Assembly (NCBI GenBank): GCA_029560455.1
Contig: JAKQKW010000097.1
Coordinates: 1 to 24,243, forward strand
Length of the DNA stretch: 24,243 bases
Source: Candidatus Rifleibacteriota bacterium
Lineage (GTDB): Bacteria > Riflebacteria > Ozemobacteria > Ozemobacterales > Ozemobacteraceae
Direction of reading: 5' to 3'
Shown: piece by piece, positions 1-15,626 of the stretch
Layout: every line of letters starts with the position of its first letter
Position numbering within the stretch: the stretch's first letter is position 1
Notes under the pieces: model-generated
Seen by the model: only the letters and a program-made list of their open reading frames with translations
Database searches by the model: none
What the model was told of the DNA's origin: nothing
Made by a program: the position numbers and the translations under genes

Positions 1-1
1 C

Positions 2-766: not shown

Positions 767-821
767 GACGGCTGTCGACCAAATTTGCGCTCAAAACAGG
801 CAACGCAGATCTGCCATGGCT

Positions 822-1436: not shown

Positions 1437-1487
1437 CAGATGACTCCGGCTTCAACAGTTAAGCTTTTTAAAACACTGCAGCGACCC

Positions 1488-1519
1488 AAAATACAACAGC
1501 CCCCGGTGGCGGGGGCTGT
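1488..1519 (-). terminator. rho-independent terminator of the TPR operon
   Basis: A perfect 9-bp stem (arms 1496-1504 and 1511-1519, ACAGCCCCC/GGGGGCTGT) closes a 6-base loop. Read on the minus strand it is followed by TGTATTTT (1495-1488), a moderately T-rich tail. It sits 27 bases past the stop codon of the 20-repeat TPR gene and would end transcription of the whole minus-strand cluster. Strong stem, imperfect T-tract. Confidence 0.8.
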
Positions 1520-1546
1520 CGCATATTTGAATTGCCGCCTGACAGG

Positions 1547-3685
1547 TCAGATTTCGGCTTCGAGTTCCATTTCCTTTTCGCACTGTTCGATAAGCGTTTT
1601 GAGGTTGTCTGCTTCAACGCCGGTCGGGTTGGTGTGCAGGAAACGGCGGGCAGTGTCGATCGCATCTCTGAACTGGCGCTTGCGGGCATAGATAACCGCC
1701 AGGTTATAATATACCTGAACGAATTTGGGGTCGATTTCGAGCACTTTCATGTAAGCGGTAATCGCTTCGTTGATGCGGCCTTTTTCGAATTCTTCGGTGC
1801 CGATATTGTAATAAGCGGCGGCATCTTTCGGATTGAGCTCGATGGCTTTTTTCCAGAGTTCGATGGCCTGATCGTACATGCCCTTGTTGTAATAGGCGAT
1901 GCCGAGCTTGTTGCGGGCTTCTGAGTCCTGGGGGTTGTATTTGATGACGCGTTTCCAGATTTCGATGGCCTTGTCATACATTTCACGGTTGTGATAGGCG
2001 GTGGCAAGGTTCGAAAGAATGTCTGAATCTTCGGGCTTGTATTTGAGAGCTTTTTCCCAGCATTCGACCGCTTTGTCGAAGAGTTCCATCTTGATATAGG
2101 CGATACCGAGCTTGTTATAGAGCTCGCCGTTTTCGGGTGTGATGCGGATGGCGTCTTCCCATTCAGAGATGGCCTGGTCGAACATATTCTTCTGGAAATA
2201 GGCAATGCCGAGGTTGTTGTGGGCATCGACATCGTTAGGTGCCAGTTCTACCACCTTGCGCCACGAGAGAATCGCGTCATCGAGCAGACCCTTTTCGTCG
2301 AAGGCGTTGCCGATAACGAAATAGGTATTGGGGTTGTTCGGGTCGAGTTCGATGGCCTTTTTCCAGCTGATGATGGCGTTGTCGAGGCGGCGTTTCTGAC
2401 GATAGGCATGGCCGAGTTTAAAGAACAAATCGGGGTCGGTCGGGTTGAGGTTTTTGGCCTTTTCCCATTCGGTCAGGGCTTCGTCGAATCTCTGCAGATT
2501 GTAAAAAGCGATACCAAGGTTATGGTGCGCTTCGAAATGGTCATGGTCGAGCTCGATGGCCTTCTGCCACTGGAAAATGGCTTCCTGGGTTTTGTTGAGC
2601 TTCGAGTAGGCGATACCGAGCTTGTGGTGCAGCTGCGGGTCATCGCTGACGTATGAAATGGCGCGGTTCCAGAATTTGGCAGCTTCGGCGAAGTCTTCGA
2701 GGCCACAGTAGGCATTACCGATCTTTTCGCAGATATCGGCATCTTCGCTGCGCTTTTCTCTGACGGCGTTCCAGTAGGTGATCGCCTTCTGGAAATTTCC
2801 GGAATTATACTGTGCAACCCCGAGGTTGAAGTGGGCTTCGACGTCGTTGGGGTTCAGAGAAATGCACTTTTCCCAGCTGGCGATGGCCTTGTTGAGATCA
2901 TCGAGCTTGCCGTAGGCAGAGCCCAGTTTGAAATATACTTCTGAGCTGTCGGGTGTGATGTCGAGAATTTTCTGCCAGGTTTCGATGGCTTCGCGGTGCT
3001 GATTGAGCTTGCTGTAGGCGTTGCCGAGATTGTTGAAAATTTCGGGCTGGCGCGGGTTGAGCGACAGGGCCTTTTTCCATTCTTCGATAGCCTGCGGGAA
3101 CATTTCGAGGCGGTAGAAGACGATGGCAAGATTGTTGTGTGATTCAGAGTTCTTCGGGTTCAGTTCGATCGCCTTTGAAAAGGCAATGACCGACTTGTCA
3201 TCGAGACCCTTGTTGTAATAGGCAACACCGAGGCGGAAGAAAATATCGGCATCTTCAGGATTGAGGTTCGAGGCTTTTTCCCAGAGGGAGATGGCCTGAT
3301 CTTCTTTGCCGAGGTTGTAGTAGGCGATACCGAGCTTGAAATGAATCTCGGGGTCGTGATTGCGCACTTCGAGGCACTTTTCCCAGTATTCGATGGCACG
3401 CATGTCTTCGCCCTTGTTGTAGTAGGCGATACCGAGGTTATGCAGCACTTCGTAATTCTGCGGGTCGAGCGAAACCGCGATTTCCCATTCTTTCAGGGCT
3501 TCATCGATGCGATTGAGCTGGTAGTAGGCGACACCCAGTTTGAACCTGGCTTCGCTGTTCTGGGGGTTCTTGATCAGTGACTGAACCCATTCATTGATCG
3601 CCTGTTCATACTGCCCTTTGGTGTAGTAGGCTATACCCAGATTATAGTGGGTATTGGCTTCATCCTGCAGATAAGTGCGCTTCAT
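1547..3685 (-). CDS. 20-repeat TPR solenoid protein, cytoplasmic
   Basis: 712 residues made almost entirely of tetratricopeptide repeats: 20 back-to-back units of exactly 34 residues (residues 10-689), with a 9-residue lead and a 23-residue acidic tail rich in Glu. There is no signal peptide or membrane segment. Each unit carries the TPR core (LGxAYYxxG in helix A, A in helix B, P near the end). A tryptophan in helix B, as in 'EWEKA' or 'YWEKC', is present in 17 of 20 units; only units 5, 19 and 20 lack it. TPR arrays bind peptides and assemble complexes; 20 units would make a long superhelix of roughly two and a half turns. The ATG has a good GGAGG 5 bases upstream and lies 21 bases after the stop of the coiled-coil gene, so the two are co-transcribed. 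Its position in the cluster suggests it scaffolds the long-tailed proteins encoded upstream. Its ligand is unknown. Confidence 0.9.
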   Translation of the reverse strand: MKRTYLQDEANTHYNLGIAYYTKGQYEQAINEWVQSLIKNPQNSEARFKLGVAYYQLNRIDEALKEWEIAVSLDPQNYEVLHNLGIAYYNKGEDMRAIEYWEKCLEVRNHDPEIHFKLGIAYYNLGKEDQAISLWEKASNLNPEDADIFFRLGVAYYNKGLDDKSVIAFSKAIELNPKNSESHNNLAIVFYRLEMFPQAIEEWKKALSLNPRQPEIFNNLGNAYSKLNQHREAIETWQKILDITPDSSEVYFKLGSAYGKLDDLNKAIASWEKCISLNPNDVEAHFNLGVAQYNSGNFQKAITYWNAVREKRSEDADICEKIGNAYCGLEDFAEAAKFWNRAISYVSDDPQLHHKLGIAYSKLNKTQEAIFQWQKAIELDHDHFEAHHNLGIAFYNLQRFDEALTEWEKAKNLNPTDPDLFFKLGHAYRQKRRLDNAIISWKKAIELDPNNPNTYFVIGNAFDEKGLLDDAILSWRKVVELAPNDVDAHNNLGIAYFQKNMFDQAISEWEDAIRITPENGELYNKLGIAYIKMELFDKAVECWEKALKYKPEDSDILSNLATAYHNREMYDKAIEIWKRVIKYNPQDSEARNKLGIAYYNKGMYDQAIELWKKAIELNPKDAAAYYNIGTEEFEKGRINEAITAYMKVLEIDPKFVQVYYNLAVIYARKRQFRDAIDTARRFLHTNPTGVEADNLKTLIEQCEKEMELEAEI
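1619..3658 (-). repeat. tandem 102-bp coding repeats (20 TPR units)
   Basis: Twenty tandem 102-base units encode the 34-residue TPRs of the solenoid protein. The helix A segment is the best conserved at DNA level: variants of 'taggcgataccgagctt' recur throughout. The units are diverged from each other, so the array looks old and functionally constrained rather than freshly amplified. Confidence 0.85.
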
Positions 3686-3706
3686 ACGGCCTCCAGAGTC
3701 TTCCTT

Positions 3707-5332
3707 TTATTTGTTTTCATCATTGCCAGAACTCGGGTCTGGAATACTTTCAAACTTGTGCACAATAGAACTGATTGCGTTACCAAACGTCTCAAGGACT
3801 GATTTAAGCTTGCTGCCCTTTTTAAAGCTGTGCACAACTTTCGTGGCGGGCATGTCGAGTTTAGAGGATTTTAGTTGTAAACGGTGTCTGAACGCAAGCA
3901 TTTCATTAAAATTATTTGCATGCTTCGGCTCACATCTGCCGTTACCTGTTTTTTGAACTTTTATCTGGTGCTGAACAATCGCATTGGTTTGTAGATAAGG
4001 AGCTCTGACAAATGTTGCGATGATAAAGCGCATAAACAGCTCAAAAGATTGATGACAGATCTCGAATTCGGGTACCGGTGGAAAAAGCAATGTCTGCCGG
4101 GCGAGCCGCATGCTTTTCTGCCACCACATCTGTCGTGCGTCAACCACCGATTCAATTGTCGAGAACTTCAGGCGATCAGGTATTCTGTCCGAGCCGGTTT
4201 TGAAAAAGTCAGTGAATATTGAAAAATCAGGATTTTCTGGCTCAAACATTCTGTTCGGGAGGGCGATCTGCTGCATACGCCGGTCATTGATGCGGGGAAG
4301 GCGCAACTGGGTGCGCACTGCCTCTTTTGTCGGTCTGATTGCCCGCGAGAGGTCGGCAAAAACTGGCGGAATACGGTGGGTGCGTCTGCTGGCCGAAGCC
4401 GGAAATGAACGTGATATTTCACGTCTGAATTTTATGGCGGCCGGCAGTCTCTCTGGAAAGCAGAAAGGTATGTAAGGCATCAGATTTGCTGGTTCAAGAA
4501 CCGCGCCCCTGGCGGTTTCTTTGCTGCTACCCGCAGACTGGTCATAAACAACGGTGCGGTTGACTCCGGTAAGAATGGCGTCAAGGCGACTTTGCAGGTG
4601 ATTGCGTTCTTTCTGCAGCGAATCAATGGTTTCAATGAACTCTCTGGCCTGGACTTCATGCAGTTCGAGGCTCTTCTTCATTTCGCGATTGCTGGTGACA
4701 ACGTGTTCAAGATCACGATTGGCTTTATCCATGGCGGCCAGGGAGTTTTTGTGATCTTCGATGATTTTGCTGAGTTCTCCCTGAGCTTTTTTTAGATGAC
4801 CTTCGTATTCGGCAGTCTGGTTTTTCAGTTGATAATTACGTGTTCTCAGATCGTCGAGTTCTCTTCGGGCCGCCTCAAGTTCACTTTCGCGGGTGGTGAG
4901 ATTGGACGTGGCAGTTGACAGCTTCAGGCTGAGTTCTTTGCTGTGCAGCTGCATCTGAGAAATCTGAGTTGACAGAGCGGCTATTTTTTCATTGGCATTC
5001 TGCAGGCTTTTTTGGGTGTTTTTCAGCTCAACGACTGAATCAGCAAGGCTGAGCTTGAATTCATACACTTTCTGGTCGCGCTGTGCAATTTCATTTTTAA
5101 ACTTTTCAATTGCCGATTCAGCCGAGGTGTTGTCGAGCAGCGCCGAAACGTCAGCAAGCATCTGGTCAAAATCAACCTCTTCAATTAAGACGGCAGTTCT
5201 CAGCAGTTCTGTATTCTCTTCGGTTTCTGGTAAACCCCGGGCATGCCCAAGCAGCTGCTGAAACAAAAGCCTGACAGTTTCAAGCTTTTCCAGCAGGTCT
5301 CTCTGCTCAGGGTTCCCTGGGTTTGAACTCAT
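3707..5332 (-). CDS. coiled-coil protein with basic Pro/Arg/Phe-rich tail
   Basis: 541 residues from the ATG at 5332. A longer reading from TTG at 5392 is open, but it would run 56 bases into the PP2C gene; starting at the ATG leaves 4 bases after the PP2C stop, which fits translational coupling. Residues about 1-70 are helical and acidic. About 75-255 are a long heptad coiled coil (for example 'ELEAARRELDDLRTRNYQL'). From about 275 to the end the composition changes completely: basic, rich in Pro, Arg, Phe and Ile, with no recognised domain. This tail contains RIPPVFADL and LRLPRINDRR, which have close counterparts in the giant protein encoded at 6241-10116. No signal peptide or clear membrane span. 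I cannot name the family. An elongated structural or tethering protein working with the neighbouring giant and TPR proteins is an inference. A frameshift causing the composition change is unlikely because the frame stays open and keeps CTG/CCG-type codon use. Confidence 0.75.
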   Translation of the reverse strand: MSSNPGNPEQRDLLEKLETVRLLFQQLLGHARGLPETEENTELLRTAVLIEEVDFDQMLADVSALLDNTSAESAIEKFKNEIAQRDQKVYEFKLSLADSVVELKNTQKSLQNANEKIAALSTQISQMQLHSKELSLKLSTATSNLTTRESELEAARRELDDLRTRNYQLKNQTAEYEGHLKKAQGELSKIIEDHKNSLAAMDKANRDLEHVVTSNREMKKSLELHEVQAREFIETIDSLQKERNHLQSRLDAILTGVNRTVVYDQSAGSSKETARGAVLEPANLMPYIPFCFPERLPAAIKFRREISRSFPASASRRTHRIPPVFADLSRAIRPTKEAVRTQLRLPRINDRRMQQIALPNRMFEPENPDFSIFTDFFKTGSDRIPDRLKFSTIESVVDARQMWWQKSMRLARQTLLFPPVPEFEICHQSFELFMRFIIATFVRAPYLQTNAIVQHQIKVQKTGNGRCEPKHANNFNEMLAFRHRLQLKSSKLDMPATKVVHSFKKGSKLKSVLETFGNAISSIVHKFESIPDPSSGNDENK

Positions 5333-5336
5333 CAGG

Positions 5337-6131
5337 TCAGAATTTCTGCAGATGCTGGTAGAGACAGACGCTGATGTTGTCTCCGCCACCATTCAGGCAT
5401 GCTCCCCTGACAAGAAGATCAGCAAGTTTTTTCAGATCGGTTCCTTCGGGGTTATATTCACTTCTGACGATTTCTTCGAGGTCGACAGGCTCAACATAGC
5501 CGCACAGACCATCAGAACAGAACAATATCAGATCGCCATACTCAAGTGGCAGATTCTTGCGGTCAACTTTTACGGCATCGCCAATGCCGAGGGCACGTGT
5601 TATCACGTTGCGCTGGGGGTGAATAAACGCTTCGTCGGGGGTTATTCTTCCCTGGTCTACAAGTTCCTGGACGAGAGAATGATCTTTAGTTATCGGGTGC
5701 AGGACATTCTGGTGAAAGCGATAGGCCCTGCTGTCGCCAACATGGGCCAGAGCCAGACCGTTGCGGTAGATAATGCCACTGACAATGGTCGTGCCCATAC
5801 CTTCCATTTCAGGATTCTGCGAGGCTTCTCTGAAAATTGTGAGGTTGGCGGCCTGAAACCAGGCTTCAAGCAGCAGGGTTTTGTCGGCATTGAGAAGATC
5901 TTCAGGCTGTTTCTCAAAAAGGTTTTTGACAATGTTTTCTTTGACCGTTTTGACAGCCAGCATTGACGCAAATTCCCCGGCAGCCGCCCCGCCCATGCCG
6001 TCTGCAAGAATAAGCGCTGTCAGTTCGATCTGATTGCCGAGAGGGCCGCACCAGCTCAATGCCAGACTTTCGGCGTAGTCTTCGTTGTTCGGCCGAACCT
6101 TGCCTTTGTCACTCAGTGTATAAAAACTCAT
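5337..6131 (-). CDS. PP2C-family Ser/Thr protein phosphatase (PrpC/Stp type)
   Basis: 264 residues, the normal size of a stand-alone bacterial PP2C (PPM) phosphatase. The whole metal-dependent core is visible in order: RPNNEDY (13-19), ADGMGG (43-48), GMGTTIV (111-117), HVGDSRAYR (130-138), DHSLVQELVDQG (150-161), NVITRALG (175-182), FCSDGL (204-209) and GGGDNIS (248-254). The metal-binding aspartates D18, D44, D207 and D251 are present, so it should be active. It removes phosphate from Ser/Thr of cytoplasmic proteins; no cognate kinase is in the window. The ATG follows GGGAG with about 8 A-rich bases between. A strong sigma70-like promoter lies immediately upstream, and the coiled-coil and TPR genes follow at spacings of 4 and 21 bases, so this gene leads a sub-operon. 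The Ser/Thr-rich giant proteins next to it are plausible substrates, by inference only. Confidence 0.93.
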   Translation of the reverse strand: MSFYTLSDKGKVRPNNEDYAESLALSWCGPLGNQIELTALILADGMGGAAAGEFASMLAVKTVKENIVKNLFEKQPEDLLNADKTLLLEAWFQAANLTIFREASQNPEMEGMGTTIVSGIIYRNGLALAHVGDSRAYRFHQNVLHPITKDHSLVQELVDQGRITPDEAFIHPQRNVITRALGIGDAVKVDRKNLPLEYGDLILFCSDGLCGYVEPVDLEEIVRSEYNPEGTDLKKLADLLVRGACLNGGGDNISVCLYQHLQKF

Positions 6132-6159
6132 TTTTTTTCTCCCGCTTGGGTCTCAACGC

Positions 6160-6188
6160 ATTTTAATTACTTTAAATCAGCAAGTCAA
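6160..6188 (-). promoter_or_regulatory. sigma70-type promoter for PP2C-coiled coil-TPR
   Basis: On the minus strand TTGACT (6188-6183) is separated by exactly 17 bases from TAAAAT (6165-6160), close to the sigma70 consensus. The expected start site is near 6153, giving a leader of about 20 bases that contains the GGGAG ribosome site of the PP2C gene. It lies in the 109-base gap between the second giant gene and the PP2C gene, the only sizeable gap inside the cluster. Confidence 0.75.
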
Positions 6189-6240
6189 CGATAGTGCACC
6201 GAACTACGGGCATTTTTTTTACAGCCGGCCTGTCAGATAT

Positions 6241-9200
6241 TTACTTTTTTGGCAGCACAGGCCTTTGCCACATCTGATCTATCCATTCTGGAACAAAGGC
6301 GGATTTGAACGCTTCTGGCCGGTGCCTGATACTTACCTGAGCATGACCTGGCCTTGTTTCAACCTTAAACATGGCTGTTTCGATGAATCTGTTTTTACTT
6401 TCAGTCCTTATTGGGTTATTGGTGAAATTGTGCACTGGTTGCCAGACCGGGGAAGCCTGATAAACCGTTGCAAAAACCTGAACAGGCTGCCTGTCGACGG
6501 TTTTTTCCTGGGCCGCCGTCGGCATGGCTGTGTGACCCGCAGAAAATTCCCTTGTTTCAGATTTTGCAGGAACCGGAAAGGCAAGATCGGAAAATCTCAC
6601 ATTGCTCGTAAGCATTGACCACAATGTGATTCTCGGCTCTGATACGATCTCGAGTGGTTTTTCACGATGATTTTCTCCAAATGCAAGGCTTGGCAAAGAT
6701 TCTGAAGTCTGCATTTCATTGCGGTATTTTCTGACCGCACCGGGCAGATTGAGGCAATAATTCATTACCGGTGATTCGGGCTGCAAAAAACTGTGCATCA
6801 TTATTATCCAGTGCAGCGGTTCGAGCGGCATTCTTCTGACGGCACGATTTTTCAGGCCAAATTCTGAATATTTTTCGCTGACTGGTCTCAACTGTATGGT
6901 TTTTGCAACATTTCTGAAACTATAGTTCCTCAGATTTTTCTTCAGGCGCGAACGGCTCTTTTCGCGCATTATAAAAAAGGTTTCGGGATTGATGAACTGC
7001 TGCAGGTATTTTTCCGGGTTCTGCATTTGCATGGCTGAAATGGCGGCTTCAGAAAGAGTAAGGCGTCGTTCAAATGACAGTGACTGACTTATATCAGAAA
7101 GGTGACGGGGCTTTGAGCCCTGAACCTGAAGAAAACTGGCTGGCAGCGGCAGAATATTTGCTCCGGCATCTGCAAAAATGAAAGCGGTAGAACGCAATTC
7201 ATCCGGAAGAGTGATTGCAGTAACCGACATTCCGGTATCAGGCTGCGCTGGCTGTTCTATTGTTCTGTGGCTCATTCTTGTTTCGGGGCGCCACGGAAAG
7301 CGGAAAGATCGGAATCTTGCATGATAGTGTGATTTGAAGCTTTCTGCGACGTCGTCATTAAAAACCGGTTTCTGCTGCAGCTGAGAAATTTCGCAGTTGG
7401 AAATGCTGAAGCGGCTCTGTGATTCGCGCACGGCAGGCCTGCTCAGAACAGGATCGGGCAGGCATGGTCTGAAAAGCTTGGCGGCAGGCTGCGTTTCGGC
7501 TGCTATCAAGGTTTTTGCAACTGCAGTCGAGAAGCGTCGGGCGCGCAGCAAGAGGCGGTTGATCCGGACCATACGTGGAACGCTGATGTCAGAGCTTTTT
7601 AAACGATAAGACTCTTTTTCTCTGCTTTCGGGAAGATGATTTATCAATGGCAGTTTAAGGCGAAGCCGCTGGTGAAACTTTTCTTCGTTGCGCGGAACAA
7701 TACAGCCTCCAGGCGTTCCAAGCCATGTGTGCAGAAAGTCGGCAATGCGCGGTGCCGGGCAGAGAGCACCTTTAAGATTGAGGTTGCCGACTAGATAAAA
7801 TTCCTTGCTGGCCAGGGCCGGATTGAGGTGGTTGTAGAGCAGTCGTCGCGGGTTCTTCATACTCAATGGCGGCAGAAACAGCTGATCTTTTTTGAGAATG
7901 AAGCTTCCGGTGCCGTGCAGTTTATTTGTCTGCGGTTGGTGCTGAGTAAATACCGGTTGCGAGCTCAGGCTGTAGAACCGCGGTTCAGAAAATGAAAAGG
8001 CTGGAAACCCGAAAGGATGGGGCAGCAGACTGATGCGGCAATTAAACCGCCGCAGGCTTTTTGCTCCGAGAGCCGGAATAATGAAATGCCTGACAGGCAT
8101 CTTAGAGCTGCCGGAATCGGAACAGATTTTCATTTCAAGCTGCAGCTGGGGTTTTATCTGCTCAGGAAGAATCTGCTGCAGAGCAAATCTTCTCAATCGC
8201 AGTCTCGGCTTCAGGCGTGGCTGTCGCAAAGTCTTGAGGGGCACAAAGCGTTCGTTACTGCCTGCGGGCAAAGATTTTTCGGCTAAAGTGCAGAGCGGAA
8301 AAAAGCTGGTTTCCTTGTCAATTTTCTTCAGGGGTTTTAGTTTTGAAGATACAAATCCTTCGCTTATGCTGTGCAGTTTGAAACGTAGCTGCCGCAAAGG
8401 TTTTCGGCGTTTTGGCGACGGTTCGATCCGCATGTCTGGCAGTGGTTGCGGGGTTGCCGGCCTTACCCGCCTCGGCATTGCGCTGGCTAAAATCGACGTA
8501 ATGGTTGAGTTCTGCCCAAGCAGATTCAGAGAGACATCCTGATGTTTGAACTGTGGGTCGGCCTTGTCGAGTTTTGATTTCGGGCAGCCTTTTTCTGAGG
8601 TGGCGAACCGCCCGGACTCAATTTTTGAAAAGGCAGAGAAGAAGAGGCTCGTCGTGGTCAGTCTCTTACTCTGGCTCGGGACTATTATGTTGCGCAGCTG
8701 TGCAAGAGTGTAGTGGGCGTGTCTTGCCGCTCTGACCATGAAACTTGCTTTTTTTATGCGGTAATCTGCAGGGATGCAGACTCTGGCAAATGCAGACTGA
8801 ACAGCGAATAACTTATTATACCGGGGTGAGACCATCATGCGGGGAAACTCTGCCGGAATACGACGATTTTGGGGAAGCCTCAGATTGAGGGTCGCATCTG
8901 GCAAAGTTGCCGAAAAAAGCAGGCTGGTGGCCGGAAAGTTCTGGCGCTGCAATCTCAGCCTGAGACGAAGCCTTGGAGCATGATACAGCGCCGAAAACCA
9001 GCCAAAGTCAGCGGGCAAAGCGCGCTCTTTCTGCAAAAAGGCTTTGGGGCTGCAGACCGAAAAAAACGGATCTGCTTTCTCTATGCGGCCAGCTGGTTTG
9101 TTGTGAGATTCAGAAGGAGTTACCGGAGAAAACTGGTCTGGCAGATTGCTGAACTTTCTCTGTTTTTCCGGGCATGATCTGGCAAAGGCCTGGTTATGCG

Positions 9201-10116
9201 TCAGGTTGATTTTTTTTCTTAAAAAACCAGGCGAGAAGATAATTTTATTTTCGAGCACGAAATTTTGATGTTTTTCATGGTCGAGAATCCGCTTTTCCGG
9301 CAAAAGCTCAATGTTTGCAGTAAACACTGGTTGGCTGGTGCTTCTGTTCAGGCTGGTCTGCATTGAGAAGCCAGTGCTTTCGGCCTCAGGAATCAATGTT
9401 TTAAGGGGCATCGGCCGGCGCTTATCATTGCCGTCAAAGAAGAGCAGCGGTGCGGTCAGGTAATCGGCAAAAGTCTTGAGCACGGGAGAAACGCAGGCAA
9501 ATTTTTTCCAGCGTTTTTTCGAACTCAAGACTGAAAAAAAGGTGCCAATGGTTGAATTTATCTGGCTCCAGGCAGCTTTTTCAATTCTATACAGACGTGG
9601 GAGTTGATCAGAAACAAATTTGAACCCGGGGTGTGGCCTGTCTGTATGACAATGGCAGCTTTTCAGTTGACAAACTGAAACCTGCATTCCGGGGCTTCGA
9701 CTGCTAATACTGGCCGGTTCAATAAACAGCGCCGTCTGATTTCTGACCGGCGATTTTTCGTTCCAGCAGCAGGCAAGCGAGGAACGCTGCGGCAGAGATT
9801 GACGAGGAAATTCGTCGGTCCAGACCGATCTGGTTGCAAATGGCAGAAATGGTTCTGGAGCAGTCGCACTGCCAGGCCTGATTTTTCTGTTTCCGGCTGG
9901 TTTTCTGCGAAAACGGAACAGGTGCTCGCTGTCGCAGCAGTAGCATTTTCTTGCCAGAGGAGATGCTGATGGTTGCACCGGCAGATGCTTTTCGGCGAGA
10001 ACCGGTTTGCCCACGACACTTAACGGTCGTCGGGTAAGAAAAATCTTGGGACCGGAGAATCTGGATGGGCTATCCAGAACCGGCAGACCTTTCTTTTGCG
10101 GCAATTTCAGACTCAT
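6241..10116 (-). CDS. giant basic Pro/Arg/Ser/Phe-rich protein, no known domain
   Basis: 1291 residues in one frame, starting at an ATG that overlaps the stop of the upstream gene as ATGA. I recognise no domain. There is no signal peptide, membrane span or coiled coil; the composition (Arg, Lys, Pro, Ser, Leu, Phe; few Asp/Glu) suggests a long, mostly disordered, strongly basic chain. In the first 100 residues I count 19 Lys/Arg against 5 Asp/Glu. Short motifs recur irregularly: RIEKA (177-181, 344-348), RIKKAS (453-458), KLDKADP (515-521), KIDKETSFF (598-606); FFSV/FFSA/LFSA (193, 351, 400, 492); SQPVFT (261, 719); PLKTL (237, 626); and runs such as RLRLRLRLQR (382-391). Cys clusters lie near the N-terminus (58-61, 116-117, 149-156). 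Codon use (CTG, CCG, AAA) matches its neighbours and no long frame competes on the other strand, so it is a real gene. Function unknown; a scaffold or nucleic-acid-binding role would fit the charge. Confidence 0.75.
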   Translation of the reverse strand: MSLKLPQKKGLPVLDSPSRFSGPKIFLTRRPLSVVGKPVLAEKHLPVQPSASPLARKCYCCDSEHLFRFRRKPAGNRKIRPGSATAPEPFLPFATRSVWTDEFPRQSLPQRSSLACCWNEKSPVRNQTALFIEPASISSRSPGMQVSVCQLKSCHCHTDRPHPGFKFVSDQLPRLYRIEKAAWSQINSTIGTFFSVLSSKKRWKKFACVSPVLKTFADYLTAPLLFFDGNDKRRPMPLKTLIPEAESTGFSMQTSLNRSTSQPVFTANIELLPEKRILDHEKHQNFVLENKIIFSPGFLRKKINLTHNQAFARSCPEKQRKFSNLPDQFSPVTPSESHNKPAGRIEKADPFFSVCSPKAFLQKERALPADFGWFSALYHAPRLRLRLRLQRQNFPATSLLFSATLPDATLNLRLPQNRRIPAEFPRMMVSPRYNKLFAVQSAFARVCIPADYRIKKASFMVRAARHAHYTLAQLRNIIVPSQSKRLTTTSLFFSAFSKIESGRFATSEKGCPKSKLDKADPQFKHQDVSLNLLGQNSTITSILASAMPRRVRPATPQPLPDMRIEPSPKRRKPLRQLRFKLHSISEGFVSSKLKPLKKIDKETSFFPLCTLAEKSLPAGSNERFVPLKTLRQPRLKPRLRLRRFALQQILPEQIKPQLQLEMKICSDSGSSKMPVRHFIIPALGAKSLRRFNCRISLLPHPFGFPAFSFSEPRFYSLSSQPVFTQHQPQTNKLHGTGSFILKKDQLFLPPLSMKNPRRLLYNHLNPALASKEFYLVGNLNLKGALCPAPRIADFLHTWLGTPGGCIVPRNEEKFHQRLRLKLPLINHLPESREKESYRLKSSDISVPRMVRINRLLLRARRFSTAVAKTLIAAETQPAAKLFRPCLPDPVLSRPAVRESQSRFSISNCEISQLQQKPVFNDDVAESFKSHYHARFRSFRFPWRPETRMSHRTIEQPAQPDTGMSVTAITLPDELRSTAFIFADAGANILPLPASFLQVQGSKPRHLSDISQSLSFERRLTLSEAAISAMQMQNPEKYLQQFINPETFFIMREKSRSRLKKNLRNYSFRNVAKTIQLRPVSEKYSEFGLKNRAVRRMPLEPLHWIIMMHSFLQPESPVMNYCLNLPGAVRKYRNEMQTSESLPSLAFGENHREKPLEIVSEPRITLWSMLTSNVRFSDLAFPVPAKSETREFSAGHTAMPTAAQEKTVDRQPVQVFATVYQASPVWQPVHNFTNNPIRTESKNRFIETAMFKVETRPGHAQVSIRHRPEAFKSAFVPEWIDQMWQRPVLPKK

Positions 10117-13100
10117 GCCGAAATTTTCTGATTGATTTCCTGCAGTTTCTGATTTGTCTGGCGGGCCAGATTCATCAGGTCACGCAACCGCAGTTTGTTG
10201 ATCAGATACTTTTCTCTTTGCTGGCTCTGGGGCATTCGATAGACGTTCATGCTGCGCTCGCCGAAACCGGCTTTTGTATGGCCTGTTTGTTCGTGACTGG
10301 CAAAGCTTTCGCAGGCATAGGGGCTTCGAGTGTTCGTCGCGGTTTCGCTGAATTCCTGACCAGCGGTTCGCATTGCCCTGAGCATGTGTCGAAGGTGTTC
10401 AAAGAGCATTTCAACCGGTTGGGGCGGCTTGACAAAAAAGTTGATCTGTTTTTGTTTTATCTCGCGGAAATACTTCTGGGCGGAAACGGCAAACGGGTAG
10501 CGGCGGCTTGTTTCAGGCTGGCGATGTTCCTGCCTGGTTTTTGCAGAAGATTTTTCAAAAGCCTCGGCTCTGATTTCACCAGCCTGCCAGATAATATTTT
10601 TCAGATCGCTTTCAATTTTCAAAGCAAGCTTCGCTGCTGAAAGATCGGCAATTTTCGGGTTTTCGACCCGACGGTAGCGGAGCGGAAGCGCTCGTGGTAT
10701 CAGGGGCATCGCATGGCAGATTTCCCAGGTAAATGGCATGGCAGATATTGATGGCAAGGGGAACAACCTCCGCGGTAATGACGGTCGGTAATCGATGCGA
10801 ATATCGATACCCGGGCCGGGGAAATGGTGGAATCTGCGCAGTCCCTGGCGCATCGACATGGTCGACAAAAGCAGTTCATCGATACTGAATTCGTTCAGCC
10901 AGGCTTTTCTGGTTATCTGAGCGGCCGCAGAGTGCCTGCCGCGTTTAAGAGTCAGGCCCGGATGGTAACCAGAGAAAAGGTCGACAGGCAGCCGGTCGAG
11001 ATGGCATGAGCGGCTGATGACAGAAGAGCTGAAACTTTTTGTAAGAGCTACGGCAGGCTGGGCGGGTAGAGAAGTGAACCGGGTATTCAGTTTGCCGGTT
11101 GCGGTTTTTTGCGACGACCGCAGCTGATTCGAGGCTGGCGAAAGGATCTCGAGCATTCTGGCCCGGCATGGCGGCAGTTGCCGGTTTTTAAGGGAATTGT
11201 CGACAACCCTGTCAGAGCTATAGATAGAAGCATCAGCCGAATCACGGTTTGATAAATCCCGGCCAGGTCTGAATTTAACGTGCAGCAGGTCAAAGACGTG
11301 TGACTCTGGGGCGGTAATCTGAGTGTATCTGAGGCTTTTGAAACCGTGTCCGGCAGAGAGGAAACAATGCGGCAACTGCTGGCACTTCGCTGCAAGCGGG
11401 TCGATAATGTTTTCGAATCTGCTTTCAGGAAAGGTCTGGCGGAAGAAAACCGGCAGCGTCGGTTTTAAAGGCTTTTTTGAACGTCTGGCTGAAATCAGGA
11501 AATCCCTTTTCAGGGGCAGGCGATCACTTGTTGAATAAACGTATTCCATCATCAGGTCTTCGATGGCAAAGCTGGACGGCAGCTTTGTATCATGCGGCGA
11601 CAGATAATTTTCGCAGACCTCTACTGCAGAAAGGTCTGTGGGTATATTCTGCGGGCAACTGGCTGCAACACTGTGAAAAGTGGAATCGAATTCGGGTACT
11701 GCCGGTTGTGGCAAAGTAAAGGGGGCCAGCTCAAACAGGTAGCTGGCCGGCATGTTTACGCTGACAGGGCTGGCAGGGGTTTCGATGAACTCAGCTGTGA
11801 CGGCTTGGGAATTAATCACAAAGCTTGCGTAATCTCTTGTCAGAAAGCTTGCTAAACGTGTTCCTGTGACGATTGTTTCAGCGTCTTCCGTTTCTACAGC
11901 TTCTTCAAATGCGAGCGGCAGTTTTGGCGGCACCGGTGGGGTGGTCAGAACCACCGTTTCGACCGGAAGTGTAAAATGATACGGGACCGGGAAAAGGTTG
12001 CTGTCGTAAGGAAAAAAGCTGCTGGCCAGATTAACAATGCCATACTCAGGGGGCGGGTCGATCGGCAGTCTGGCAAGAAAATCGTTTTCCGGCATGAATG
12101 GGCGGTTGCGGGCAAATTCATCGGGCATCGCCGTTGCCGCTTCCTCCGGTGGCAGAACCCATTCGTAGGCAGGTTCAAATTCGATCCAGTGCGTCATCTT
12201 TGCGCGTTCTGAGATGGCCTGAATAAAACAGAGATTTTCCTGAAAAAGGGCAGGCAGGGTGTAGACCAGCTGAAACTCGGGCGGAATAAAAAAATGTGTG
12301 ACGCTGCTTATTTCGCAGAACTTTTCACAGGCCGCGAAAGAGTACTGCTTGTATTTTCGGGCGGCATAGCCAAGAACGTGCGACAGTGATGGAACTTCGG
12401 GCAGGTCTGGCTCAAGTTTGAAAAGAATTGGTGAAGGCTGTCGATCTTTTTCGGGCAGAATTGGAATCTCAGGCTGCAGTCTGGATTCGGGCGGGGTGAC
12501 AAAACAGTCTTCGAACTTGTAAACCGGGCGCATTGCCATCCCTGAAACTGCGGTTTTTTCGATCTGGTTCACCGCCGTGTGGCTCTGCCCGAAGGCATTT
12601 AAGGCGAAAGTCCCTGGTGAAGCCCGCTGAATGATTTTACACTCCGGTTCCTGGCAGAGTTTGGGGTTGATTCCTACCAGGGGATGAGTGACACCGGAGA
12701 TTCTGATTCTGATGCGATAATTGCCAGAGCCTTCTTCGAGAAAAACCTGAAGTTCTGAGGGATGAATAAAAAGGCGGGCCGCTGTGACCTGTTGAACCTT
12801 TTCGAGATATGGCGAAAGCTTTTCGAGAAGTTCGCCATCGAGGCAGGCTTGAAAATCAGCGGTATGCTGGCCGCGAAACCTGAGAGGGCTGTCGGTGCCG
12901 GCATTGAGAAGACGGTTTAATGCCGAAACCGTCTGATGCATTAGTGAATCGGTTTTCAATACTGTGGGCCAGGCTTCGAGTCTCTGCTTTGGGAACTCTT
13001 CATTGACCGGTATGATATAGGTCTGCTGGCTGTCAAAGATTTTTCGCAGCTCCGAGCCGTTGACAACGCTTTCGGCAACCTTCTGGTCTTCGGGCGATGA

Positions 13101-13691
13101 AGGTACGCGGTTGAATATCAGCCAGGTATTTTCCTGGAGCTGGTATGACAACGCAGGGTTCTGCTGCAGCAGTTTGTCGAGGCAGATAAGTGATTTTTCA
13201 TCCGACTGGGAGACGATCAGTGAAGCGGGTCGACTGCCGCGCCACAGATGCTGGCGGGCGAGCAGATCAGAAACTTTCTGGCAATGGGAGAAGCCGGCAG
13301 GAAAATTGATGAAGACGCAGTCAAAACTCGCTTTTAGTTGAATAAAAAAATCTCTCAGGGATGTATCAGAAAACAGGAGAGAAGGATCGGCCAGTCTGTG
13401 TGCAGGAAAATATGAGATCTGCGTGGTTTCGGTAAAGTAAAAATTCTTCTGAAAACGGTTTTCTTCGGCCTTGATCGACTGCGAGATTTCGGGGTATTCC
13501 TGGAGAATGATAGACTGCGGGAAGGTGCTGCGCAGTTTGAGCGGCATTTCGCCATCGAGATCGATCAGGGCAATTTTCTGTTTCAGATTGTTGAGAAAAA
13601 CCGAAAGCCCGGCAATCAGTGAAGCCTTGCCGGAACCTGCTCTGACCGATGAAAAGAAATATACTGGAGTTAAAAAAGACGCCCTTGCCAT
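10113..13691 (-). CDS. giant protein: degenerate MinD/ParA-like head plus long low-complexity tail
   Basis: 1192 residues from the ATG at 13691; the frame is open upstream to a TTG at 13727, but homology begins after the ATG. Residues 1 to about 265 look like a SIMIBI-class ATPase: RAGSGKAS at 17-24 in place of KGGxGK[TS][TS], IALIDLD at 40-46 (Walker A' position), and FDCVFINFPAG at 123-133 in place of the usual 'DyvIIDxPxG'. The changed residues suggest weakened or lost ATP hydrolysis. Residues about 275-340 may form a small folded domain. From about 399 to 718 the chain is acidic and proline-rich (44 Asp/Glu to 17 Lys/Arg by my count); from 719 to the end it is basic (about 76 to 41) and ends in a short helical segment. 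No known family matches the tail. The gene starts 48 bases after the MBL gene and overlaps the next giant gene by 4 bases (ATGA), so the two proteins are probably made together. ParB is two genes upstream, which hints at a link to chromosome positioning. Confidence 0.75.
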   Translation of the reverse strand: MARASFLTPVYFFSSVRAGSGKASLIAGLSVFLNNLKQKIALIDLDGEMPLKLRSTFPQSIILQEYPEISQSIKAEENRFQKNFYFTETTQISYFPAHRLADPSLLFSDTSLRDFFIQLKASFDCVFINFPAGFSHCQKVSDLLARQHLWRGSRPASLIVSQSDEKSLICLDKLLQQNPALSYQLQENTWLIFNRVPSSPEDQKVAESVVNGSELRKIFDSQQTYIIPVNEEFPKQRLEAWPTVLKTDSLMHQTVSALNRLLNAGTDSPLRFRGQHTADFQACLDGELLEKLSPYLEKVQQVTAARLFIHPSELQVFLEEGSGNYRIRIRISGVTHPLVGINPKLCQEPECKIIQRASPGTFALNAFGQSHTAVNQIEKTAVSGMAMRPVYKFEDCFVTPPESRLQPEIPILPEKDRQPSPILFKLEPDLPEVPSLSHVLGYAARKYKQYSFAACEKFCEISSVTHFFIPPEFQLVYTLPALFQENLCFIQAISERAKMTHWIEFEPAYEWVLPPEEAATAMPDEFARNRPFMPENDFLARLPIDPPPEYGIVNLASSFFPYDSNLFPVPYHFTLPVETVVLTTPPVPPKLPLAFEEAVETEDAETIVTGTRLASFLTRDYASFVINSQAVTAEFIETPASPVSVNMPASYLFELAPFTLPQPAVPEFDSTFHSVAASCPQNIPTDLSAVEVCENYLSPHDTKLPSSFAIEDLMMEYVYSTSDRLPLKRDFLISARRSKKPLKPTLPVFFRQTFPESRFENIIDPLAAKCQQLPHCFLSAGHGFKSLRYTQITAPESHVFDLLHVKFRPGRDLSNRDSADASIYSSDRVVDNSLKNRQLPPCRARMLEILSPASNQLRSSQKTATGKLNTRFTSLPAQPAVALTKSFSSSVISRSCHLDRLPVDLFSGYHPGLTLKRGRHSAAAQITRKAWLNEFSIDELLLSTMSMRQGLRRFHHFPGPGIDIRIDYRPSLPRRLFPLPSISAMPFTWEICHAMPLIPRALPLRYRRVENPKIADLSAAKLALKIESDLKNIIWQAGEIRAEAFEKSSAKTRQEHRQPETSRRYPFAVSAQKYFREIKQKQINFFVKPPQPVEMLFEHLRHMLRAMRTAGQEFSETATNTRSPYACESFASHEQTGHTKAGFGERSMNVYRMPQSQQREKYLINKLRLRDLMNLARQTNQKLQEINQKISA

Positions 13692-13739
13692 GTTGTGCAC
13701 ATCATACCATACACACCGGGGCGGCAACTACAAAAAGCT

Positions 13740-14627
13740 TCAAATTTCGATGATCATTCCTTCACGGGCAAATTCAGCTCTATTGAACAGCTTCTTTGCC
13801 TGAGCTTCCATGTCTTTGAGTTTTTCATCGTTATGGAGCGGATCGTGGTGGGTAATAACCAGGCGTTTGGCTCCCGCAGCTTTTGCAGCTCTGATGCCCT
13901 CTTCTGGCGTTGAATGACCGAAACCCTGTTTTCCGGGACCGGGCAGATTGAATTTGTGCGGTGCATATTCGTCGCAGGTATACTGTCCGTCATAGATCAG
14001 CACATCGACGCCTCGTGCCAGCCCCAGCAGATTCTGATCGATCGAACCGTCAGTCGGGTGTTCACAGTCTGTGGCGATAGCGACGCACTTGCCGGCTTCT
14101 TCAATTCTGTATCCCAGGACACCGTTCGGATGAACGAGCTTAAAAGCGGTTATCGTGGCTTTGCCAATCTGCACGCGATTGTCGACAAGATTCTTAAAAT
14201 TGATTTTTGATGAAAGGTAATTCAGATCGACCGGAAAATAATAGTTGTCCATCTGACCGCGCAGTGTGGTTTCGATGCGATTGCCGACATCGGAGGCGCC
14301 GTAGAGATTGAATTCGTTGCAGCACTCGTCGATGCGGTTCCCTTTGCTGTCTTTTTTGCCGATATAGGCCGGTGCGAAAAACGGGAAACCCTGGATGTGG
14401 TCCCAGTGGGAGTGAGTGAAGAAAATGTGCGCGACGCCTTTGCCCTGGCCGAACTCCTGTTGCATCAGGCTGTTGCCAAGCACGCGAATGCCGGTGCCGG
14501 CATCGAAAATGATTCTCTCATGATCAGAAGTTAAGACTTCAATACAGGTGGTATTACCGCCGAATTCGACGGTGTCTTTACCCGGCACGGGTATCGACCC
14601 TCTGACACCCCAGAATTTAATAATCAC
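13740..14627 (-). CDS. MBL-fold metallo-hydrolase (COG1235/PhnP-like)
   Basis: 295 residues with the full metallo-beta-lactamase-fold hydrolase core. The N-terminus FWGVRGSIPVPG and FGGNTTCIEV (5-31) is the hallmark of a subgroup often annotated as cyclic-nucleotide phosphodiesterase-like or PhnP-like. The metal motif THSHWDHIQG (71-80) supplies H72, H74, D76 and H77; later ligands are probably H166, D187 or D213, and H238 or H260. The inserts 'FAPAYIGKKDSKGNRIDE' and 'NNYYFP'-like loop residues shape the substrate pocket. It probably hydrolyses a phosphodiester in the cytoplasm, but substrate cannot be read from sequence. The start is GTG at 14627 with AAAGG about 9 bases upstream. It follows parB by 23 bases and precedes the MinD-like giant gene by 48, so all three appear co-transcribed. 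Confidence 0.85.
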   Translation of the reverse strand: MIIKFWGVRGSIPVPGKDTVEFGGNTTCIEVLTSDHERIIFDAGTGIRVLGNSLMQQEFGQGKGVAHIFFTHSHWDHIQGFPFFAPAYIGKKDSKGNRIDECCNEFNLYGASDVGNRIETTLRGQMDNYYFPVDLNYLSSKINFKNLVDNRVQIGKATITAFKLVHPNGVLGYRIEEAGKCVAIATDCEHPTDGSIDQNLLGLARGVDVLIYDGQYTCDEYAPHKFNLPGPGKQGFGHSTPEEGIRAAKAAGAKRLVITHHDPLHNDEKLKDMEAQAKKLFNRAEFAREGMIIEI

Positions 14628-14650
14628 ACCGCTTTACCTTTCAAATAGAA

Positions 14651-15532
14651 CTACAGGCAAACCGATACCATTGACTCTACAACTCTCTCAAGATCGTCCC
14701 TGTCGTAGAATTCAATTTCAATCCGGCCCTTGTTTTTGCCCTGACGAATGCGAACCTTGGCGCCAAGAAGCTCCTGAAGGTTTTCTTCGACAGCTCGAAC
14801 GTGCATATCAGAACTCATCAGTAATCTGCCTTTCTTCTGACAGGCGCTGGAGTTATCTGTTTTTTCGCGGGCGATCTGCTTTTCGGTTTCATAAACCGAA
14901 AGCTGGTCGGAAACAATTTTTCTGGCCCACAGCCGCACATCAGCCGGATCTTTCAGCCCGGCGAGCATTTTTGCATGCCCTGCCGATATCTGACCGTCTG
15001 CGACCATCAGCTGAACCTCGGGGGGAAGCTGCAGAAGCCTGAGCCGGTTGGTAAGCGCTGATCTGCTGCGCCCAACCTTTTCTGCCAGCTGGTCGTGGGT
15101 CAGGCCGAAATTCAATAGAATGTCTCTGAGGGTTCTGGCTTCTTCGATCGGATTGAGATCCTGTCTCTGAATGTTCTCGATCAGGCCGGCGAGCATGGTT
15201 TTTTCTTCGTTGAGCTTGCGAATGACCGCCGGAATAGTGTTCATTCCGGCAATTTTGCTGGCCCGGTAGCGTCTTTCACCTGAAACGATCTGATACCTGC
15301 TGCCGATCTGTCGCACCAGAACCGGTTGCAGAACGCCATTCTCGCGAATTGACTGCGCCAGTTCTTCCAGTGCCTGTTTATCAAAGATCTTGCGGGGCTG
15401 GTTCGGGTTCGGGTAGACCTTTTCAAGAGGCAGAACCTTGAATTCCATCTCGGTGTGGCCACCTTCGCCAATACACCCCGTGTTATTGATATCGACAACT
15501 TCGCTGTCAATGTTTAACAGGTTTTTGAACAT
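14651..15532 (-). CDS. parB: chromosome-partitioning protein ParB/Spo0J
   Basis: 293 residues from the ATG at 15532. The frame is open to a TTG at 15598, but that stretch carries a likely promoter and the ATG has GAGAGAGA about 9-10 bases upstream. The CTP-binding ParB/sulfiredoxin-like domain shows NPNQPRK (42-48), GVLQPVLVR (66-74), SGERRYRAS (84-92) and ENIQRQDLNPIEEA (119-132). A helix-turn-helix for parS recognition follows (about 144-168, with LAEKVGRSRSALTNRLRLLQ). The C-terminal dimer region is KGRIEIEFYDRDDLERV. All key motifs are intact, so it should load on parS and slide as a CTP clamp. The N-terminus (MFKNLLNIDSEV) lacks the usual Arg/Lys-Gly-Leu-Gly motif that engages ParA, and no ordinary parA is adjacent; the only ATPase-like gene nearby is the degenerate one two genes downstream. 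It heads the minus-strand cluster. Confidence 0.93.
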   Translation of the reverse strand: MFKNLLNIDSEVVDINNTGCIGEGGHTEMEFKVLPLEKVYPNPNQPRKIFDKQALEELAQSIRENGVLQPVLVRQIGSRYQIVSGERRYRASKIAGMNTIPAVIRKLNEEKTMLAGLIENIQRQDLNPIEEARTLRDILLNFGLTHDQLAEKVGRSRSALTNRLRLLQLPPEVQLMVADGQISAGHAKMLAGLKDPADVRLWARKIVSDQLSVYETEKQIAREKTDNSSACQKKGRLLMSSDMHVRAVEENLQELLGAKVRIRQGKNKGRIEIEFYDRDDLERVVESMVSVCL

Positions 15533-15569
15533 TAAATTGCCATCTCTCTCAACATAATTAATGGCATCT

Positions 15570-15598
15570 ATGTTATCATGCACTTGAAAGTCATACAA
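15570..15598 (-). promoter_or_regulatory. putative parB promoter
   Basis: On the minus strand TTGTAT (15598-15593), a 17-base spacer and TAACAT (15575-15570) form a fair sigma70-like promoter. The expected start near 15563 would give a 30-base leader ending in GAGAGAGA before the ATG at 15532. It overlaps the region that must also drive the divergent TPR gene, whose best -10 candidate is TACAAT at 15594-15599 on the plus strand. Both are predictions from sequence match only. Confidence 0.45.
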
Positions 15599-15626
15599 TA
15601 TTCTTTAAAAAAAACAGGGGAAAAGT

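Follow-up and report, generated by a model that had tools for sequence, protein, structure and literature searches.

Among described systems, the PomX/PomY/PomZ proteins of Myxococcus xanthus are among those closest to the locus presented here, by architecture. One account of them describes a ParA/MinD-type ATPase, a coiled coil, an alpha-solenoid and disordered parts that meet in a nucleoid-linked cytoplasmic body (PMC10307791). For O-GlcNAc transferase (OGT), substrates are described as lying extended inside the TPR helix with Asn contacts to their backbone (PMC10164912), and Riflebacteria have been noted to stand out by how many of their gene families are unknown (PMC10849945). The window, a stretch of 24,243 nucleotides from Candidatus Rifleibacteriota, holds two adjoining genes, ORF1 and ORF2, which constitute a large conserved unknown of Riflebacteria at the chromosome-partition locus. 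With its neighbours the pair forms a cassette that resembles PomXYZ in architecture, in that it appears to combine a ParA/MinD-type ATPase, a coiled coil, an alpha-solenoid and disordered parts. Unlike in PomXYZ, the solenoid is a separate protein made of TPRs, the ATPase is altered and fused to a tail, two chains exceed 1000 residues, and the coiled-coil protein is not present in every lineage.

The original prediction of two minus-strand frames joined by an ATGA was borne out, as were the short frames opposite (80–191 aa) and the neighbour-like codon use. ORF1 (10113..13691, 1192 codons) starts with the ATG at 13691, has its stop at 10113 and encodes a MinD/ParA-like head and, after it, a long tail that belongs to no known family. 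ORF2 (10116–6241, that is 6241..10116, 1291 codons) encodes a basic protein, likewise of no known family, and the ATGA stop/start overlap lies at 10113..10116; these and all features below are on the minus strand. When the 7.45 kb were imitated 300 times with a first-order Markov model, no open frame was longer than 352 codons and the maxima averaged 198, which excludes chance as the source of both frames. Synonymous codon use correlated with that of the pooled neighbours at r = 0.88 for ORF1 and 0.71 for ORF2, as against 0.02–0.54 for ten other frames in the same DNA, each with 33–62 stops. Since no 19-residue window in either chain exceeded a mean hydropathy of 1.39, there is no membrane span, in agreement with the prediction. 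The chains had also been called Arg-rich, which holds for ORF2 (8.8% R, pI 10.5, net +104) but not strongly for ORF1 as a whole (6.5% R, pI 8.6). A basic ORF2 was seen in all 13 complete single-frame ORF2s in the slot, window included (pI 9.5–11.8, net +32 to +104), and the Pro content of the chains is 8–9%.

The two genes overlap by 4 bases in 14 of the 19 loci in which both ends were seen, window included; four others have a gap of 9–13 bases and one an overlap of 32 bases (first-start calling). As originally proposed, we infer a two-protein scaffold made in equal amounts. Upstream, an extended −10-like element, TGGTATGAT (13701..13709), lies 18 nt before the ORF1 ATG, and a TGNTANNNT element stands 14–18 nt before the homologous ATG in 18/18 loci, window included (distances partly counted by hand), being less −10-like in the three rumen-type loci G004, G022 and G023. 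Its conservation at this distance supports the ORF1 start at ATG 13691. Judged from sequence, the position of TGGTATGAT suggests a leaderless or nearly leaderless ORF1 mRNA, and ORF1 is apparently served by a separate promoter, so that co-transcription with parB is not required and its link to that gene may be loose.

Homologues with intact frames are spread through Candidatus Riflebacteria, with 46 proteins for ORF1 and 14 for ORF2 (among about 8000 candidates sharing most words; the length window of the protein searches favours homologues of similar length). The closest pairs revealed purifying selection, with dN/dS of about 0.1 for ORF1 and 0.2 for ORF2, well under 1, while dS was saturated in most pairs; further ORF2 pairs gave 0.31 and 0.52. 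These values leave out window ORF1 against its 80–86% relatives, which are known as protein only. Alignments covered 23 of 28 ORF1 homologues plus the window (A1), 26 of 28 plus the window and six loci (A3), 10 of 14 ORF2 homologues plus the window (A2), 13 of 14 plus the window piece and five loci (A4), and 16 of 33 fragments (A5). Sequence change in the ORF1 tail and in ORF2 is rapid, with indels scarce among close relatives: pairs of at least 44% identity showed 0–1.9 gap events per 100 substitutions. Neighbouring proteins gave 0–2.3 (PP2C), 1.0–2.4 (TPRb) and 1.0–2.4 (u297), and the low rate is not special to the tails, as u312 (0–0.7 at 51–62% identity) and the coiled-coil protein (0.6–1.1 at 63–65%) showed. 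Chain length is steady in most lineages but not all, with 1281–1312 aa for ORF2 in 9 of 13 cases and exceptions at 1169 (G015), 1360 (G017), 1496 (G005) and 1615 aa (G006); in G017 ORF1 is also exceptional, at 1389 aa. The ORF2 kinship of G017 and G015 is weak. In G007 and G008 an ORF2 profile match is absent and three ORFs fill the slot, the third of which matched ORF2 with an E-value of 0.009 but a probability of 4%. A common origin of the ORF1 tail, ORF2 and the coiled-coil protein was rejected (E 0.28–0.59).

The predicted ATPase-like head of ORF1 could be confirmed as a MinD/ParA (deviant Walker-A) fold of the SIMIBI type in residues 1–265 (12897..13691). AF2 modelling, Foldseek and VIA-align place this fold at residues 6–269, the stretch to which the VIA-align test, a re-ranking of Foldseek's own chains, really applies. 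Motifs were counted in 60 related and partly overlapping rows (46 proteins and 14 loci, window included), at what we take to be the places of the signature Lys and Walker B. As in MinD/ParA ATPases, including FlhG, BcsQ and CpaE-like proteins, the P-loop GK with its Lys and the adenine-side Asn are retained, and Asp stands at the DxD positions in most rows. Unlike in these ATPases, the Walker-B Asp is replaced by Asn in 59/59 readable rows, the signature Lys position that opens the deviant Walker A is usually Arg (R 44, K 5, other 7 in 56 readable rows), the metal-binding Thr position holds Ala or Ser in nearly all rows, and a tail of about 850 residues follows. Residues 286–332 (12696..12836) form a small conserved helix-strand-strand unit according to the structure model and the sequences. 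A by-eye likeness of residues 270–345 to a GspE-N2E-like domain (type II secretion ATPase) gained no support from profiles, with no convincing match in PDB sequences or Pfam; NCBIfam gave weak whole-protein GspE matches in 5 of 33 ORF1 rows.

The ORF1 tail (residues 346–1192, 10116..12656) ends in a helix at 1169–1191. ORF2 carries conserved islands at its N-terminus (residues 1–66, 9919..10116) and centre (residues 678–760, 7837..8085, with LLPHPFGFP and SMKNPRR). In profile and family-library searches, with the ORF1 tail searched as part of ORF1, no known family covered most of either chain, which bears out the earlier statement that no described family resembles them. With the intact homologues and the low dN/dS, none of the three outcomes named beforehand as refuting the idea came about. 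The ORF2 profile had no match in PDB sequences, Rfam gave nothing at gathering score, and a Pfam Egg_lysin match (E 0.04, 2 of 19 ORF2 rows) was taken as chance. In ORF2, FxxP, PxxF, [RK]xx[RK]F and alternating basic/hydrophobic strings were weakly enriched (z 2.6–4.8, related sequences pooled), and FP and LxxLxF were not. Short-motif repeats were dropped as evidence, the alternating strings being more enriched in the ORF1 head.

The parB gene lies at 14651..15598. ORF1 is present in 20 of 21 genomes with a ParB 52–84% identical, in none of six with a distant ParB and in none of 12 without ParB. The remaining genome, G018, has a parB contig that breaks off; a different contig carries an ORF2-like gene, before which the final part of an ORF is seen. 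ORF1 thus accompanies the cassette ParB type in 20, probably 21, of 21 genomes and in 0/18 others (23 genomes matched; G014, G020 and G032, whose sole Walker-A match lay in a protein of about 318 aa, were not counted). ORF2 profile matches (17/39 genomes) and the 712-residue TPR protein (18/39, with 29 candidates scored per genome) all fall within these 21. Since the genomes form one lineage, this co-occurrence may be shared descent. The pair had been predicted to be tied to the functions of the cluster, and co-occurrence favours this, while the apparent promoter of ORF1 speaks against a required co-transcription with parB. The ParABS of sister genomes G033–G036 shares its ParB family and phylum with the cassette genomes. 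These four are the only ones of 39 with a Soj-like ParA (E ≤ 1e-100), and all four of their ParBs carry the ParA-activating motif, whereas the cassette genomes lack a canonical ParA and the motif was found in none of the 18 cassette ParB N-termini read (the window and 17 of the 21 genomes). With what we take to be the parS consensus, exact sites were found in 5 of 21 cassette genomes, 4/4 ParA-bearing sisters and G038 (reversed-pattern control 0/39); near parB, sites with at most two mismatches were seen in 2 of 15 cassette loci including the window, both with two mismatches, and in 4/4 sister loci. The standard partition motor has apparently been lost at the cassette parB locus.

Gene order in the cassette is conserved among loci. 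In the window it comprises a 295-aa MBL-fold hydrolase (13740..14627), an Stp1-type PP2C Ser/Thr phosphatase (5337..6131, promoter-like site at 6188–6160), a coiled-coil protein with a basic tail (3707..5392), whose gene is missing from its place between the PP2C and TPR genes in four rumen-type loci, and a 712-aa protein of 20 gapless TPRs with a nearly invariant inner groove (1547..3685). The latter may be the strongest clue. At positions 2, 5, 6, 9, 12 and 13, which we assume to form the inner groove, 1.7% of residues were non-consensus in 16 sequences, compared with 14.5% at thirteen positions taken as outward (Mann-Whitney p = 7e-16) and 9.9% at all others. Position 2 is acidic in 15 of 20 repeats, and position 6 is invariant in all 20. 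In the PDB, engineered TPRs matched first, followed by OGT as the closest natural protein, and the two share Asn at position 6 (10/20 repeats), presumably the equivalent of the OGT ladder position. Unlike OGT, the 712-aa protein has no transferase domain, has 20 repeats and mixes Asn with Lys.

What ORF1 and ORF2 do can be read in several ways. Its place near parB, the ParA-family fold of its head and the lack of a Soj-like ParA in every cassette genome would suit ORF1 as the organism's own ParA, a tail-swollen partition ATPase working with ParB. Set against this are the uniform Walker-B Asn, the signature Lys in only 5 of 56 rows and the missing activating motif in cassette ParBs. NCBIfam favoured MinD models (30 of 33 members) over the ParA family (ParA_partition, 17/33), with the best single E-value (5.6e-10) going to a polysaccharide tyrosine-autokinase family, and when hhalign compared the head with five in-phylum groups, the four sister ParAs gave the weakest fit, a ranking confounded by alignment depth. 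A ParA origin of the head was not supported by these comparisons, and we hold the partition reading to be quite unlikely. A role like that of BcsQ, regulating an envelope or export complex, is suggested by BcsQ as the first Foldseek match and a recurrent weak NCBIfam match (28/33), yet the MinD, ParA and BcsQ matches lie close together and the conserved cassette contains no recognised membrane protein, synthase or porin; we consider this very improbable.

The tails, for their part, might adopt a large fold of an unfamiliar kind, with ORF1 and ORF2 forming a sizeable complex, globular or fibrous, on which AF2 fails with 19–33 sequences. The few indels between close relatives, as in the folded neighbours, and the islands along ORF2 fit such a complex. 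By hydropathy and charge the chains, with a single exception, also fall slightly on the folded side of the Uversky line, so that AF2 may have overlooked folded proteins here. However, AF2 found no folded part in ORF2 residues 1–1200 (pLDDT 32.8, 19 sequences) and, modelling head and tail of ORF1 together, mostly no confident structure for the last 850 or so residues (pLDDT mostly <50); hydrophobic periodicity gave no consistent signal, Pro makes up 8–9% of the chains, and length varies in four distant lineages. On balance we regard a large fold as somewhat unlikely. That most of the length of both proteins belongs to no known family could also indicate spurious frames, decayed genes or mobile-element cargo, but this is refuted by the Markov control, the low dN/dS in the closest pairs, the 46 ORF1 and 14 ORF2 homologues, the conserved synteny and the absence of any PHROG or PADLOC match to ORF1 or ORF2, which leaves it practically no probability.

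Our tentative preference is for an undescribed, Riflebacteria-specific cytoplasmic scaffold, with ORF1 and ORF2 as its large chains, bound by the TPR superhelix, and the ATPase-derived head as switch or anchor. The superhelix would hold the chains, which are basic and rich in Pro and Phe, in extended form within its acidic/aromatic Asn/Lys groove. Contacts would be mainly to their backbone, as in OGT, so that sequence could vary freely as long as spacing stayed steady. Together with the coiled-coil protein where present, the chains would build a cytoplasmic body whose phosphorylation is set by PP2C; the head would bind a nucleotide and act not as a motor but as a slow switch or a module that docks, perhaps onto the nucleoid or ParB, giving an overall logic like that of PomXYZ. 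A nearly invariant groove and fast-changing ligands fit together only if binding is mostly to the backbone or to conserved islands; the groove may instead serve a different partner. A bolder version, in which ParA was lost in Riflebacteria and the cell is organised by a new fibre or hub of two >1000-residue chains along a 20-repeat TPR superhelix that fixes spacing, not sequence, with an altered MinD-like cap, appears doubtful. Within a library of open-access papers we found no described system with this fixed-spacing principle, and no title or abstract describing ORF1- or ORF2-like proteins. With the nearly invariant TPR groove, the pair offers a directly testable hypothesis for selection on a long, poorly modelled protein with little sequence conservation. 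The phylum-wide spread, the altered active site of the head and the TPR protein had been overlooked in the earlier reading of this DNA.

In the window, ORF1 ran for 1192 codons on the minus strand, from the ATG at 13691 to the stop at 10113, and ORF2 for 1291 codons on the same strand, from 10116 to 6241, with an ATGA common to the end of the one and the start of the other, as the original prediction had it. Because the longest open frame in 300 Markov imitations reached only 352 codons, a chance origin of these frames is ruled out. Codon use was indeed neighbour-like (r 0.88 for ORF1 and 0.71 for ORF2, against 0.02-0.54 for other frames of the same DNA). Protein searches placed the closest relatives in Candidatus Riflebacteria/Ozemobacteraceae, and intact homologues were present for both frames. 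For ORF1, 28 proteins were found in a first search and 46 in a profile search, 43 of these measuring 1156-1258 aa, with three shorter ones of 875 (designated partial), 958 and 1083 aa; for ORF2, 14 proteins of 1291-1318 aa were found. Records naming an organism were Riflebacteria/Rifleibacteriota, except one labelled Erysipelotrichia, the contig of which bears the same locus. In loci read as DNA, ORF1 was 1162-1240 aa long in 13 of 14 and 1389 aa in genome G017, and ORF2 was 1281-1312 aa long in 9 of 13, while the distant genomes G015, G017, G005 and G006 gave 1169, 1360, 1496 and 1615 aa. Length is therefore constant inside most lineages, but not universally.

Both frames are under purifying selection, for which the original prediction had proposed dN/dS as a check. 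Among the closest pairs listed, dS being saturated in most pairs, dN/dS was 0.10-0.15 for ORF1 and about 0.2 for ORF2, with 0.31 and 0.52 in two other ORF2 pairs; the MBL-fold hydrolase, ParB and PP2C gave 0.03-0.10, the coiled-coil protein 0.10-0.16 and the TPR protein 0.008-0.033.

The predicted ATPase-like head of ORF1 proved to have a MinD/ParA-type fold. AlphaFold2 (33 sequences) modelled residues 9-265 mostly at pLDDT 70-90 and residues 286-332 as helix-strand-strand; the remainder scored mostly under 50, and two helices appeared there, at 1092-1109 and 1169-1191. Foldseek and VIA-align grouped residues 6-269 with MinD, FlhG, ParA, BcsQ and nitrogenase Fe protein at almost equal scores, and profile and NCBIfam comparisons did not establish descent from ParA. 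In 60 aligned heads, counted over readable rows, the P-loop Lys was kept in 56/56 and the Walker-B Asp was replaced by Asn in 59/59; the signature Lys gave way to Arg in 44 rows and to other residues in 7, remaining Lys in 5; at the metal-binding Thr position, Ala was read in 31, Ser in 22 and Thr in 3. The head likely binds nucleotide, and ordinary hydrolysis is doubtful.

ParB was found at E <= 1e-15 in 27 of 39 genomes of the phylum that were examined, at 52-84% identity in 21 and at 35-41% in six. ORF1 was present in 20 of the 21, in 0/6 with the more distant ParB and in 0/12 without ParB. In the 21st genome, G018, the parB contig stops 118 bases past parB, and on the TPR contig lie PP2C, the coiled coil and an ORF2-like gene of 1349 aa (profile E 1.8e-6), which shares bases with the end of another ORF. 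ORF2 profile matches (17/39 genomes) and TPR-712 (18/39) all fell within the 21, of which G007, G008, G015 and G017 gave no ORF2 match. Since the genomes are draft and related, absence and co-occurrence weigh less than these raw counts.

A canonical ParA of 258 aa, which adjoins parB in G034, matched at E <= 1e-100 only in the sister genomes G033-G036 of the 39; within the 21 cassette genomes the best match was 2.6e-34 (G017), the others were 3e-17 or weaker, and two had none. The ParBs of G033-G036 start with a GLGRGL/ALGKGL motif, which was found in 0/18 cassette ParBs read; PMC12462528 describes ParA binding through a conserved motif at the ParB N-terminus. ParA therefore appears to have been lost in the cassette lineage. 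That ORF1, which some sources name 'ParA family protein' or 'MinD-like ATPase', stands in for ParA is less likely, since changes affect both the active site of its head and the motif of ParB. The window parB (14651-15598) was compared with L083, L088, L089 and L090: the cassette ParBs read are motif-less, and the four sister genomes have the motif and an adjacent ParA. In two further genomes, ParB (L084 9643-10518, L085 11296-12171) has neither a ParA neighbour nor the activating motif, and lies beside a gene that we take to be RsmG-like; ParA may thus have been lost more than once.

TPR-712, the product of the final cassette gene (window 1547-3685), consists of 20 gapless 34-residue TPRs, and no internal indels occurred among 16 sequences (the window and 15 others, 83-94% identity). 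In these, groove positions 2, 5, 6, 9, 12 and 13 were non-consensus in 1.7%, against 14.5% at thirteen positions assigned to the outer face and 9.9% at all the rest (groove vs outer face p = 7e-16). Position 6 is Asn or Lys in 18/20 repeats and invariant, and helix-packing positions are likewise conserved. In G005, TPR-712 kept 87% identity vs 73% for TrpRS, 63% for ParB and 63% for MBL. With its low dN/dS and almost invariant groove it was the best conserved among the cassette proteins compared. Among natural PDB structures it matched OGT most closely; according to PMC10164912, OGT binds extended substrates within its TPR helix via Asn-backbone contacts, Pro being favoured and Gly disfavoured. 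Pro is abundant in the ORF1/ORF2 chains, which in most lineages are also basic and poor in Gly, the ORF2s of G005 and G006 having 7-8.5% Gly; we infer that these chains could be clients of TPR-712.

ORF2 was strongly basic in 13/13 complete single-frame copies, the window included. It had been predicted to hold no known domains, which agrees with family, phage, defence and PDB sequence searches (Pfam, NCBIfam, PHROGs, PADLOC, PDB) that gave no trustworthy match. AlphaFold2 (19 sequences) modelled its residues 1-1200 at a mean pLDDT of 32.8. In pairs of at least 44% identity, the tails had, for every 100 substitutions, 0-1.9 internal gap events, compared with 0-2.3 for PP2C, 0.6-1.1 for the coiled-coil protein and, for the neighbouring genes TPRb, u297 and u312, 1.0-2.4, 1.0-2.4 and 0-0.7; more distant pairs gave 1 to 7, alignment error included. 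Hydropathy was marginally on the folded side. Taken together, these two features do not match the behaviour expected of a loose linker: either the chains have a fold that escaped AlphaFold2, or binding to a partner that sets their spacing makes them ordered. Our preferred reading is a scaffold in the cytoplasm: the TPR superhelix, together with the coiled-coil protein where present, would organise ORF1/ORF2, the altered ORF1 head would serve as a nucleotide-dependent anchor and PP2C would act as regulator. By architecture, the nearest described system is PomXYZ, with an ATPase, a coiled coil, a HEAT solenoid and disordered parts (PMC10307791).

The element TGNTANNNT lay 14-18 nt upstream of the homologous ORF1 ATG in 18/18 loci (window 13701-13709, homologous sites elsewhere) and was most like an extended -10 box, except in three rumen-type loci; the ORF1 transcript may begin with the AUG or close to it, leaderless. 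The top promoter-like match within window 1-16000 sits upstream of PP2C, the 14 matches found there being near chance (11.0 +/- 2.6 expected). ORF1-ORF2 may therefore be a separate bicistronic unit. The two genes overlapped by 4 bases in 14/19 loci with both ends visible; the junction was otherwise a 9-13 base gap in four rumen-type loci and a 32-base overlap in L066 (first-start calling).

The order parB-MBL-ORF1-ORF2-PP2C-coiled coil-TPR was found in the window, L057 and L066, and in several more loci up to contig ends. The coiled-coil gene between PP2C and TPR was missing from the rumen-type loci L058, L059, L067 and L129, additional genes separate MBL from ORF1 in G017, ORF1 lies away from parB in G024, and G019 has different genes downstream of ORF2, with TPR on a separate contig. 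A TPR gene at 15627-16829 overlaps the next gene (from 16660) by 170 bases (16660-16829) under first-start calling, identically in L055, L056 and L068, and a start may be mis-set. In G007 and G008, three large ORFs fill the usual ORF2 place (L063 6912-16272, L064 6813-15051); the third matched ORF2 at E 0.009 and a probability of 4%, and may be distant kin.
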